From assembly GCF_003885105.1 (NCBI RefSeq), contig NZ_QWZQ01000009.1, forward strand, positions 1 to 64,000: a stretch of DNA of 64,000 nucleotides. Direction: 5' to 3'. The notes under the pieces are model-generated. The model did no database searches. It had not been told where the DNA came from and was given only the letters and a program-made list of their open reading frames with translations. Shown piece by piece: positions 24,697-57,398 of this stretch. Position 1 is the stretch's first letter, and each line of letters begins with the position of its first letter. Source of the DNA: Lactiplantibacillus garii (lineage in GTDB: Bacteria > Bacillota > Bacilli > Lactobacillales > Lactobacillaceae). Both the position numbers and the translations under genes were made by a program.

Positions 24697-24904
24697 CAAA
24701 AAAACACCGTTGCTAGCAAAGACGCTGTTAACGCGGTACCACTTTGCTTGCAACGATGTGTTCGTTTACCTCTTAAGCTCATTAACGCTGAGAAACGGAC
24801 TAGTTTGCTAGTCATTGATCACAGGTAGCATTTAAACCGTACCGCACTTTTTCCAGCAACCAAAGTGTTTCTAGACCGACGCACGGTTTAAACATGTCCT
24901 TACT
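24697..24904 (-). promoter_or_regulatory. T-box riboswitch of alaS
   Basis: The leader carries the T-box sequence AAGTGGTACCGCG (minus strand 24744-24732). The terminator stem is CATCGTTGCAAGCAAAG (about 24758-24742) with CTTTGCTAGCAACGGTG (24721-24705), then seven T. The upstream part folds as stem I with an AGTA motif near the 5' end; a GCT triplet followed by A (24829-24827) is placed as an Ala specifier. Uncharged tRNA-Ala would stabilise the antiterminator and allow alaS expression. Confidence 0.9.
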
Positions 24905-24910
24905 TTGAAA

Positions 24911-53997: not shown

Positions 53998-54843
53998 TTA
54001 ATTTTCCACCTTTTGGTTCCCAAACCATTTCTTATTAATTTTGGCGAGGGTCCCGTTACGCTTCAATTCTTTCAAACCAGCATTGATTTTGCGGCGCATG
54101 GTCTTATCACCCTTACGCATTCCGACCGCAAAGTCTTCGGATTTAAAGTTTCCCTGCGTTTCGTTGTAGTCGGCTGAGTTAGCTTCGTGTTTAATGTAGT
54201 AGTTCGCGTACACACTATCGATCAACAACCCTTGGATCCGACCGGCGTTTAAATCCAAAAACGCGTTGGTAAAGGTATCGTACTGTACCGGCGTCTTTTT
54301 GGCGATTTTATCCTTTAAAAGTTTCGGGTTATTCTCCAACGATTCGTAACCCGACGATCCGGATTGAACCCCTAAGGTTTTACCGGTCATGTCGTTAAAG
54401 GAATTGATCTTATTTTTCTTGAGTGAAACTAAAATTTGTTTATTCTTTAAGTAAGTATTGCTAAACGCCACAACTTTTTCCCGTTGCGGGTTCTTCGTGT
54501 AGCCGTTCCAAATTAAATCAATCGTCCCGTTACGAAGCTCGGTCGCGTTCATCGACCAGTCAATGGTCTGAAAGCTAATTTTGATCCCGTAAAGTTTAAA
54601 AACGGCCCGGGCCAGGTCAATATCGTAACCGACCAACTTACCAGATTTTTCCCGGAACCCCATCGGAACAAAGCTATCGTCTAGCCCAACGACCACGGTG
54701 CCGCGTTTTTTAATCGTTGACCACGTATCCTGCGTATCGGCCCGCTTGGTAACGGACTCCCCACAACCACTGAGGGTGCCGGCCAGTCCGATTAGCATGA
54801 CTAGTAATAAGCTTAATGAAATTAATCGTTTTTTAACTCTCAA
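53998..54843 (-). CDS. Polar amino acid ABC transporter, substrate-binding lipoprotein
   Basis: 281 residues from TTG at 54843 (GGGGG eight bases before; GTG at 54852 touches it). N-terminal lipoprotein signal with lipobox LSGC (Cys about 28), then the SBP family 3 fold: GTVVVGLDDSFVPMGFREKSGKLVGYDIDLARAV and IDLIWNGYTKNPQREK, GKTLGVQSGSSGYE. Trap for a polar amino acid at the outer membrane face. Last gene of the permease-ATPase-SBP operon, controlled by the T-box leader. The exact amino acid depends on the specifier codon. Confidence 0.92.
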   Translation of the reverse strand: MRVKKRLISLSLLLVMLIGLAGTLSGCGESVTKRADTQDTWSTIKKRGTVVVGLDDSFVPMGFREKSGKLVGYDIDLARAVFKLYGIKISFQTIDWSMNATELRNGTIDLIWNGYTKNPQREKVVAFSNTYLKNKQILVSLKKNKINSFNDMTGKTLGVQSGSSGYESLENNPKLLKDKIAKKTPVQYDTFTNAFLDLNAGRIQGLLIDSVYANYYIKHEANSADYNETQGNFKSEDFAVGMRKGDKTMRRKINAGLKELKRNGTLAKINKKWFGNQKVEN

Positions 54844-54855
54844 TCGCCGCACCCC

Positions 54856-55497
54856 CTACTTCGAATTGTTCGGTTCAACGTGGAACATTTCGTCCGCGAT
54901 GTTTTCCGCAAACGTCAAATCGTGGGTGACCACAATTTGAGTCATGCCGTCCGCTTTTAAGCCCATGATCAACTTTTCAACTTCCTGCCGAAGGTTCGGA
55001 TCCAGCGCCGAAGTGGGTTCGTCATAACACAGGACGTTGGGCTTCATAGCCAAAGCCCGCGCAATGGCCACCCGTTGTTTTTGCCCACCTGAGAGCTCGT
55101 ACGGGTACTGGTCAGCGTGATCAGCTAAGGCCAAACGGGTCAACAGTTCGTTGGCTTGTTTTTGCGCTTCAGCTTGGGACTGTTTCAACACCATTGTTGG
55201 TGCTAAGGTAATGTTTTGCATCACCGTTAAATTTGGAAACAGTTCGAAGTTTTGAAAAACAACCCCGATTACACTCTCGTTGGTGCGGTTGGTATACGGA
55301 TCAAAGGCCTGTCCGTCAATGAAGAATTCACCGGCGTTTACCTTCTCGAGCCCGGTAATACACCGTAGCAACGTCGTTTTACCAGCTCCGGAAGGCCCTA
55401 CGATACTTAAAATTTCACCGTCTTTAACGGTTAAATTTAACTTGTTAATAATTGTTTTGTCACCAAAACTTTTCGTAATGTTTTTGAGTTCTAACAT
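54856..55497 (-). CDS. Polar amino acid ABC transporter, ATPase
   Basis: 213 residues, short but complete. Walker A GPSGAGKTTLLR (about 34-45), Q loop FQNFELFPNLTV, signature LSGGQKQRVAIARALA (about 132), Walker B VLCYDEPTSALDP and the switch VVTHDL. Single domain for one-half of the dimer. Downstream SBP starts 12 bp later, upstream permease ends 12 bp before. Confidence 0.94.
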   Translation of the reverse strand: MLELKNITKSFGDKTIINKLNLTVKDGEILSIVGPSGAGKTTLLRCITGLEKVNAGEFFIDGQAFDPYTNRTNESVIGVVFQNFELFPNLTVMQNITLAPTMVLKQSQAEAQKQANELLTRLALADHADQYPYELSGGQKQRVAIARALAMKPNVLCYDEPTSALDPNLRQEVEKLIMGLKADGMTQIVVTHDLTFAENIADEMFHVEPNNSK

Positions 55498-55509: not shown

Positions 55510-56151
55510 CTATTTCCAGTAACTGTAGTGCTTTTCAATGCGACCCAGGATAAACGTGGTGACCGCCGTTAACAACAGGTAAATGACCCCGACAAGAACT
55601 AGTGGAACTAACGTTACGTCACGCGCCGTTGCCACGTTTCCGGCCCGGAGCAAGTCGCCCAAGCCAATCACGTAAACTAACGAAGAATCCTTAACTAAAT
55701 TAATGACTTCGTTCCCAACGGAAGGTAACACAATTTTGATGACTTGGGGAATGACGATTTTACGAATGGTCTGACCATAGCTTAACCGTAATACCCGGGC
55801 ACTTTCATACTGACCATCATCAATGGACTGTAAGCCGCCACGGAAAATTTCGGCGAAGTACGCGGCGTAGTTTAAGATAAACGCGAACAACGCGGCGTAG
55901 TAACGCGGAAAAACAATTCCAACCAGCGGTAAACCGTAAAAAACAAAAATCAGTTGTAACAGTAACGGTGTCCCCCGCATTAACCAAACGTAAAAATGCA
56001 GCAACCACTGCAACGGTTTGAAATTGGAAATCAGTCCCAAACTAACCACTAACCCCAACGGCAACGATCCAATCAAAGTCCAAATAAAAATCTTTAGCGT
56101 CATTCCGGCGCCGGCTACTAACGATGGCAAAATCTCTAAAATATAGTGCAT
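55510..56151 (-). CDS. Polar amino acid ABC transporter, permease
   Basis: 213 residues with five membrane helices, HisM/GlnP type. The cytoplasmic EAA-like loop (about 135-160, ESARVLRLSYGQTIRKIVIPQVIK) binds the ATPase. LMRGTPLLLQLIFVFYGLP (about 55-73) is the family marker. Single permease gene, so it should work as a homodimer. Its start follows AGGAGGG and it lies directly behind the second T-box terminator. Confidence 0.94.
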   Translation of the reverse strand: MHYILEILPSLVAGAGMTLKIFIWTLIGSLPLGLVVSLGLISNFKPLQWLLHFYVWLMRGTPLLLQLIFVFYGLPLVGIVFPRYYAALFAFILNYAAYFAEIFRGGLQSIDDGQYESARVLRLSYGQTIRKIVIPQVIKIVLPSVGNEVINLVKDSSLVYVIGLGDLLRAGNVATARDVTLVPLVLVGVIYLLLTAVTTFILGRIEKHYSYWK

Positions 56152-56178
56152 GTGCTTTCCCTCCTATTTTTGGCAACA

Positions 56179-56550
56179 AAAAAATCCCCTTAAGATCCAA
56201 TGATCTTAAGAGGACGTCTACGCGCGGTGCCACCTCACTTCGCAGTGACCTCACAGTCACTGCCTCAGGGAGTTTAGTGATAATAAAAAAATCGTCCTTA
56301 GGCCTAAAGCCTAAGAGGACGATTTCATCGCGGTGCCACCTCATATTTATCAATGGCTCACACCATTGAACTCAACGAGTTTATCACTAAACTCCGCCAA
56401 TAACGAGGCCAACCGGAACGGCTTACTATGATTTCAGCCACTCAACTCGCAGATGTGGTTCGTTCACGTTAAGGACCGTCTTTCCACCACCGACAGCTCG
56501 CTGGACATCTTAACGTCAACTACTCTTCTGTTCCTTGTTTTTTAATGTTG
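56179..56550 (-). promoter_or_regulatory. T-box leader with duplicated antiterminator-terminator module
   Basis: Minus-strand leader with one stem I (AGTA motif and pairing ACGTTAAG / CTTAACGT at about 56505 and 56470) and then two complete modules. Module 1: stem III CAATGG-TGTGAG-CCATTG (56368-56351), T-box GAGGTGGCACCGCG (56342-56329), terminator ATCGTCCTCTTAGGC.../GCCTAAGGACGAT with seven T (56323-56284). Module 2: stem III GCAGTGAC-TGTGAG-GTCACTGC (56263-56242), T-box GAGGTGGCACCGCG (56236-56223), terminator stem TCCTCTTAAGATC / GATCTTAAGGGGA with seven T (to 56179). The TGTGAG loop is the same in both. Specifier not certain: CGA (Arg) or CAC (His) can be read in the GAACGAACCACA loop. 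Confidence 0.85.
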
Positions 56551-56555
56551 TTCTC

Positions 56556-56584
56556 ATAATAATCGAATTTAACGGCACCGTCAA
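56556..56584 (-). promoter_or_regulatory. T-box leader promoter
   Basis: Minus strand TTGACG (56584-56579), 17-bp spacer, TATTAT (56561-56556), directly after the minD stop. Confidence 0.75.
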
Positions 56585-56591
56585 GTCTTTT

Positions 56592-57398
56592 TTACTTGTT
56601 TCGGTGAAAAATTCCGGTGATTCGGGACCACATTCCTGGTTTCTGAACTTCAATATTCATCAGCGGTACCGTTTCGCCTTCAAGCCGCCGGGCAATGTTC
56701 CGGTAGCCTTGTGAAGCGGAATTTTTAGGGTCCAACACGATTGGTTCCCCGTTATTCGACGTCCGAATCACGGCGTCATCGTCAAAGACGATCCCCAGTA
56801 AATCAATTGACAAATGGTGCGTAATTTCGTCAATATCCATGGTTTCACCGTCCTGCATCATCCGCCGCCGAATCCGGTTAATCACCAGTCGGGGGGCTTC
56901 GTTCAACGGATATTGTTCTAACAAACCAACGACCCGGTCCGCGTCACGAATGGCTGAGATTTCGGGTGTTGACACGATAATTGCCGCGTCGGCCCCCGCA
57001 ATCGCGTTCATAAAGCCCTGTTCGATTCCGGCTGGACAGTCCAGTAAAACGTAATCAAAATCGGGCTTTAATTCGTCAACAATCGAACGAACCTGATCAG
57101 GGTTTAGCGTGTTCTTATCCGCGTTTTGTGCCGCTGGTAATAGGAATAGTAAGTCGTCGAAGCGCTTATCCTTAACCAGAGCTTGACGCAACTGGGCCCG
57201 GCCCTGAGCGACGTCTACGATATCGTACAGAATCCGGTTATCGAGCCCTAAGATCACGTCCAGGTTACGTAACCCAATATCTAAGTCAACTAGGCAAACC
57301 TTTTTGCCCATCAAGGCTAAGGCCGTTCCCAAATTGGCCGTGGTCGTTGTTTTACCAACACCGCCCTTGCCAGAAGTGATGACAATTGCTTTTCCCAT
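56592..57398 (-). CDS. minD: Septum-site determining ATPase MinD
   Basis: 268 residues from ATG at 57398, which overlaps the minC stop (TGATG) and follows GGAGG by nine bases. Deviant Walker A GKGGVGKTTT (about 9-18), DLDIGLRNLDVI, LLDCPAGIEQG and the C-terminal amphipathic membrane helix WSRITGIFHRNK. Recruits MinC to the membrane to block FtsZ at the poles. Follows minC as normal; no minE and no divIVA in this window. Confidence 0.97.
   Translation of the reverse strand: MGKAIVITSGKGGVGKTTTTANLGTALALMGKKVCLVDLDIGLRNLDVILGLDNRILYDIVDVAQGRAQLRQALVKDKRFDDLLFLLPAAQNADKNTLNPDQVRSIVDELKPDFDYVLLDCPAGIEQGFMNAIAGADAAIIVSTPEISAIRDADRVVGLLEQYPLNEAPRLVINRIRRRMMQDGETMDIDEITHHLSIDLLGIVFDDDAVIRTSNNGEPIVLDPKNSASQGYRNIARRLEGETVPLMNIEVQKPGMWSRITGIFHRNK

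Follow-up and report, generated by a model that had tools for sequence, protein, structure and literature searches.

In the window that we analysed, i.e. the whole stretch of 64,000 nucleotides of contig NZ_QWZQ01000009.1 of Lactiplantibacillus garii, whose numbering is used throughout, a T-box leader on the minus strand carries a single stem I followed by two complete decision modules, each with a stem III, a T-box sequence and a terminator. A long-range helix that would enclose the first module (hereafter the bracket helix) covaries between genera of Lactobacillaceae. Sequence comparison gives good support to the presence of two modules behind a single stem I, to the covariation of the helix and to the constant spacing of module 2. 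The reading that we favour, and consider probable, is that of a histidine T-box in which the decision block was duplicated behind its only stem I: the bracket helix would loop out module 1, module 2 would take its place, and the sensor would be read again.

One stem I and two modules in a histidine T-box leader

The whole leader extends from about 56544 to 56152, and the two modules together occupy 56395-56178; the range reported by an earlier sequence-only reading (56179-56400) spans both modules and not the whole leader. All the features described below lie on the minus strand. A search over the leader with the Rfam T-box model RF00230 (gathering cut-off 93 bits) gave a single full match, at 56544-56312 (117.5 bits, E 2.4e-25, model positions 1-219); specifier, F-box, stem III, T-box and terminator are all present. 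The alignment to this model places the sole copy of stem I at 56445-56538 and the stem II and F-box region (stem IIA/B) at 56401-56442. In module 1, stem III (56350-56369, from sequence and folding) is followed by the T-box sequence TGAGGTGGCACCGCG at 56329-56343, found by RF00230 alignment and sequence, with its core GGTGGCACCGCG at 56340-56329, and by the terminator hairpin with its T run (56285-56325, hairpin scan). Module 2 presents the same succession, with stem III at 56242-56263 (sequence and folding), the T-box sequence TGAGGTGGCACCGCG at 56223-56237 (sequence and partial RF00230 match; core GGTGGCACCGCG at 56234-56223) and the terminator hairpin with its T run at 56178-56215 (hairpin scan). 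The terminator-like hairpins with T runs detected by the scan, at 56316-56296 and 56215-56184, number two against a mean of 0.5 in shuffled sequences, and the core of T-box 2 follows the T run of terminator 1 at a distance of about 50 nt.

Taken alone, module 2 gives a partial, sub-threshold RF00230 match (14.2 bits), and because it matches only model positions 161-216, a second stem I is absent before module 2. The model search, the sequence and the terminator scan thus confirm the sequence-only reading, which had proposed one stem I with two complete blocks. The details on which that reading had relied are also present: the T-box sequences of the two blocks are identical, both stem III hairpins have the loop TGTGAG, and the AAACTC..TGAG noted at the start of both blocks is real, corresponding to the 3' strand of the hairpin in front of module 1 and to a second copy before module 2. 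The origin by block duplication that it had proposed is supported. With one stem I and at least two T-box/terminator modules, the leader has the organization of a partially tandem T-box; a fully tandem T-box would have another stem I and specifier ahead of module 2, and none was found here. A promoter between the modules would have spoken against a single unit, and a weak consensus scan of 56100-56800 found no promoter-like site there. The sole match, TTGACG-17-TATTAT at 56556-56584 (pattern scan), lies upstream of the leader; it fits 10 of 12 consensus positions and is weak, as shuffles yield 0.6 such sites per region. A match to NsiR1 at 56235-56178 (18.4 bits, cut-off 39, E 0.46), which overlies T-box 2 and terminator 2, was taken as chance. 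Another T-box match of the window, at 24715-24909 on the minus strand, scores 67.5 bits, under the gathering score.

The specifier codon read from the sequence is CAC (His), at 56455-56457, in the context GAA-C-CAC-A. The same format, GAA-N-XXX-R, reads CAC in another leader of this genome (L002), upstream of a hisZ-like gene whose protein has hisZ as best NCBIfam match (267.9 bits for a cut-off of 271.65). Readings of the specifier as Asn AAC or Pro CCA were rejected on the basis of this agreement. Candidate codons were found in the same format in the other leaders of the genome. Downstream of the leader, the first gene encodes an ABC transporter permease (55510-56151; HEQRo_perm_3TM above cut-off), followed by genes for an ATP-binding protein (54856-55497; best match GlnQ, under its cut-off) and a substrate-binding protein of the polar amino acid type (53998-54852; matches under cut-offs). 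These three genes form a polar amino acid ABC operon; we infer that it is specific for histidine, and that the permease is that of the T-box-regulated His transporter. Such transporters are described as common in Lactobacillales (PMC9413887).

The variable base of the T-box was compared with base 73 of the tRNA. This base is C in both T-boxes of the leader (56335 and 56229) and is not complementary to the tRNA, as reading of the acceptor end of both tRNA-His genes found (L231 and L232) gives C73, which calls for G. All 42 T-boxes of the 21 genus leaders carry C, A or T as their variable base, and the two modules differ from each other in 7 of the 21; base 73 therefore seems to be unread in this His T-box. 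In tRNA-His, base 73 is expected to pair with G-1, and this pairing may lie behind the mismatch.

A linker hairpin and a bracket helix that exclude each other

Directly after the F-box region, a linker hairpin, GAGTTTA-GTGA-TAAACTC (56377-56394, from folding), precedes module 1 and would correspond to the module-1 state; it is invariant in the 21 genus leaders. After terminator 1, the strand TTATCACTAAACTCC (56269-56283; folding, alignment and covariation) is complementary to the 5' strand and loop of this hairpin, i.e. to GGAGTTTAGTGATAA (56381-56395), with which it can form the 15-bp bracket helix of the putative module-2 state (56395-56381 paired with 56283-56269). The strand GGAGTTTAGTGATAA is common to the two pairings, which are mutually exclusive. 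Moreover, TTATCACTAAACTCC is not a copy of the hairpin, since its loop part is complementary and not repeated. The calculated energy of the bracket duplex is -20.2 kcal/mol for 14 of the 15 pairs. In minimum-energy folds of the growing transcript, begun at 56412 with stem I left out, the linker hairpin is kept up to 56283 and the bracket is found from 56276 on, so that the predicted fold switches once about half of the 3' strand has emerged. A hairpin was detected at the same place in 17 of 18 relatives with a single T-box core, by a lenient search with no chance control (L213 being wobble-rich), and its loop has at most 5 nt in 13 of those 17. The linker hairpin therefore seems to belong to the ordinary architecture of such leaders.

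The bracket helix, which the sequence-only reading had missed, is the best clue to how a lone stem I could work with both modules. The comparative evidence for it comes from 101 two-module leaders of Lactobacillaceae. Anchors (AGTT on the 5' side, [AG]ACT ahead of the second TGAG) could be placed in 89 of them, which yielded 49 distinct arm pairs from 12 genus groups. The anchor positions were left out of the score because duplication by itself would make the AACT copy complementary to the AGTT strand. Within a leader, standard pairs are found at 8.8 of the 10 non-anchor positions, against 4.7 (sd 1.69, n 2084) when arms are combined between genera and 4.1-5.2 when they are slid by 1-3 bases. 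When one leader was drawn per genus and the partners were deranged, none of 20000 such draws reached the value of the true partners, and the seven inner positions of the bracket have 6.08 pairs within leaders against 2.92 in the control. Up to six standard pair types are used at a position, and position +6 is paired in all 49 leaders. An earlier and smaller covariation run (55 loci, 30 distinct pairs) gave the same picture. The signal comes from other genera, because the 5' arm is invariant within the genus of the window, where an uncompensated mismatch occurs at one bracket position (+5) in 6 of the 21 leaders.

Comparison of each bracket with shuffled 3' regions gave p<=0.01 for 27 of 34 Lactobacillaceae loci and p<=0.05 for 32, the remaining two missing both thresholds. 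These shuffles and the derangement test supersede a lineage-mixing energy control of very uneven composition, in which the own mean was -20.0 versus -7.5 in Lactobacillaceae and -9.9 versus -8.2 in the others. The arms are complementary in all 12 leaders missed by the anchor (L182-L186, L192, L194, L196, L200, L204, L218 and L228): the duplex energies range from -11.4 to -23.4 kcal/mol (no shuffle control), and the duplex ends at or beside the second TGAG-like element, with T-box 2 lying 30-35 nt further on; in L182-L186 and L200, which belong to one genus, AGTT is replaced by GGTT, GGTC or another stem.

The spacing of the two modules was compared in the same way. In the window, about 38 nt lie between the end of the linker hairpin and T-box 1, and about 37 nt between the end of the bracket and T-box 2. 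For 58 of the 61 leaders in which both elements could be placed, the distance is 35-39 nt from the hairpin end (AACT) to T-box 1 and 36-40 nt from the bracket end to T-box 2. The distance from T-box to T-box ranges from 99 to 174 nt; as this distance is variable and that from bracket to T-box 2 is constant, inserts located between terminator 1 and the second arm fall inside the loop closed by the bracket. Such a constant spacing would be expected if, through the bracket, module 2 regains the geometry that module 1 had, and part of it would also follow from the block duplication. In five leaders with a T-box spacing of 133-174 nt (L200, L228, L192, L194 and L218), extra sequence lies between terminator 1 and the second arm, which still adjoins the second TGAG.

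Distribution of the two-module pattern and of the bracket

We searched GTDB contigs for a strict two-module pattern, defined as two T-box cores with T run and too little room for a stem I. At least 119 stretches were found, and arrays of two, three and four modules occur among the 119 matches listed. The comparative search in other lactobacilli that the sequence-only reading had suggested identified the pattern in 111 of 397 Lactobacillaceae genomes, distributed over 17 of 40 genera, against 1 of 397 in a backward-read control. The leader of the window itself was found in the 21 genus genomes searched, with both modules each time. The layout is therefore not unusual, contrary to what had been claimed for it, all the more so as the class already has a name in a review (PMC7583486). 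One Lactobacillaceae genome (G346) has two separate two-module leaders.

An orthologue of the permease is encoded in 142 of 161 genomes of the family searched, and from the coordinates the strict pattern lies directly upstream in 42 of them. Among 40 leaders from the other 100 permease genomes, 16 have a second T-box-like core (12 detected by script and 4 by eye), 18 have one core (L213, L214 and L226 being unclear) and 6 have none. In L226, a second CCGTTA-type F-box region follows the first module, perhaps a fully tandem T-box replacing the compact one. Conversely, the permease orthologue is downstream in 30 of the 119 two-module matches listed. Eighteen other two- to four-module loci, out of the at least 119, were searched against Rfam: a single T-box match exceeds the cut-off in 16, and none does in the other two (L047 and L065). 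Nine downstream proteins were compared with NCBIfam, and seven are above a family cut-off, those of L047 and L048 having matches below cut-offs only. These families are DAHP synthase (two Syntrophomonas and one Alicyclobacillus), a sodium-dependent transporter (one Lysinibacillus and one Paenibacillus), lysA (Pyramidobacter) and thrS (Clostridium).

The presence of a bracket in every two-module T-box is not supported. Outside Lactobacillaceae, with fixed windows and shuffled sequences as control, p<=0.01 was obtained for 1 and p<=0.05 for 4 of the 57 testable loci, the gap being too short for the bracket test in 28 of the 85 loci. Compact arrays of two to four modules in Bacilli leave no room for a bracket, which is therefore not needed in every array. 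With a module spacing of 87-92 nt, such Bacilli arrays have four modules in L119 and L138 and three in L027, L079, L090, L093 and L131; L119, L138 and L027 have one full Rfam T-box each, and the sodium-dependent transporter is downstream of L119 and L027.

In 16 loci of the Syntrophomonadaceae type, the mean duplex energy is -16.7 versus -14.8 (sd 3.7) with exchanged partners; 9 of 20000 permutations were as good, with windows fitted after inspection of the folds. Single loci of this type often rank low in their own row of the partner exchange, and a bracket-like helix in these loci is suggestive only. In L043, L051, L099, L100, L112, L124 and L130, leaders of this type, the minimum-energy fold has a helix of unrelated sequence that encloses module 1, and relatives such as L040, L068 and L070 fold with the local hairpin instead. 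A DAHP synthase gene is downstream of L043 and L112. In L100, the Rfam match extends across the two modules, so that module 1 looks like an insertion.

A proposed relay from one sensor to two terminators

In the mechanism that we propose, the local hairpin (56394-56377) would stand about 38 nt upstream of T-box 1 during the module-1 stage, and uncharged tRNA-His bound to stem I would decide the outcome at terminator 1. The strand 56283-56269 would be present only after read-through, and it would then capture the 5' strand and loop of the hairpin in a 15-bp helix around module 1. In this looped-out state, module 2 (TGAG, its stem III, T-box 2 and terminator 2) would come to the former site of module 1, placed relative to stem I and stem IIA/B irrespective of the intervening length. 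Module 1 would be beyond the reach of the tRNA acceptor end once the bracket is closed, and the charging of tRNA-His would be read a second time, at terminator 2. As the bracket can form only past terminator 1, it would act at the second decision. The bracket would form in the cell and hand the sensor to module 2, where the same or a fresh tRNA would be read in its turn. A lower leak and a steeper response, as guessed in the sequence-only reading, would be plausible outcomes of this second reading of one stem I.

Other functions of module 2 or of the bracket have to be weighed against this relay. Module 2 could act just as a back-up terminator lowering the leak, with a T-box 2 that is unread by tRNA and an incidental bracket; serial terminators by themselves are indeed known to cut basal read-through, and the sequence of terminator 2 is present in the genus alignment. 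However, this alignment also shows that T-box 2 and the antiterminator 2 pairs GAGG:CCTC and (G/A)CG:CGT are kept in the 21 genus leaders. The sequences of stem I and stem III drift in these leaders, and the pairs are still kept in the five in which T-box 2 reads ACCACG. From the conservation of these pairs, module 2 is probably more than a spare terminator. Moreover, without a functional T-box 2 the operon would hardly be inducible past a strong terminator, and the bracket covaries. We therefore regard a pure back-up role as quite unlikely.

The bracket helix could also insulate the near-identical modules from mispairing (e.g. between T-box 1 and terminator 2 strands), rather than position module 2. 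Cross-pairing is possible, since the terminator strands GTCCTCTTA and the identical T-boxes are common to both modules, and a closed domain would block it. Insulation would nevertheless require neither that the distance from bracket to T-box 2 equal that from hairpin to T-box 1, nor that the 5' strand of the linker hairpin be reused, and we give it a small, though appreciable, chance. It is highly improbable that the modules respond to independent tRNAs, module 1 via stem I and module 2 by catching an acceptor end without it. T-box sequences do pair with the tRNA 3' end and module 2 owns a stem III, but in known T-boxes the specificity and most of the affinity come from stem I, and this explanation accounts for neither the bracket nor the constant spacing. 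The relay, with the bracket replacing module 1 by module 2, is thus the reading that we retain.

Compared with the T-box described by RF00230, with which it shares the specifier, F-box, stem III, T-box and terminator, the leader adds a second decision block, which has its stem III, T-box and terminator but lacks a stem I. In addition, the hairpin in the linker that joins stem IIA/B to stem III has a second possible partner at long range, whereas this linker is unpaired in the Rfam consensus. Duplicated T-boxes are reportedly treated in the surveys of Vitreschak (2008) and Gutierrez-Preciado (2009). Partially tandem T-boxes are a named class whose mode of action is given as unknown in the available text of PMC7583486; they have one sensor and repeated downstream parts, and our leader is a member in the apparent sense of the name. 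By contrast, the covarying helix that would exchange one module for the other is absent from the description found there. For five Enterococcus species, PMC9413887 reports fully tandem T-boxes in front of the histidine transporter operon, and for most of its genomes a single T-box per regulatory region; no mention of the layout with one stem I and two modules in lactobacilli was found in its accessible portion. Fully tandem T-boxes and contiguous riboswitches (PMC12452182) likewise take serial decisions before one operon, and a sharper response is expected of them in print; they possess two complete sensors, whereas the leader has one stem I. No description of the bracket helix was found in the accessible open literature to which we limited the search, subscription literature being outside its scope. 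What is known is therefore the partially tandem class, and what is new is the covarying bracket helix as a variant of it.

We lean, a little less firmly than for the window itself, towards the more general view that one sensor serving two expression platforms in succession constitutes a co-transcriptional relay kept in about 12 genera of Lactobacillaceae. The bracket helix would then give a concrete answer, for one large group, to the question of how one stem I serves two successive terminators. If this is true, the RNA puts aside a decision module that has done its work and brings in the next one, which would provide a two-step check from a single aptamer and could also be of use for designed RNA switches.
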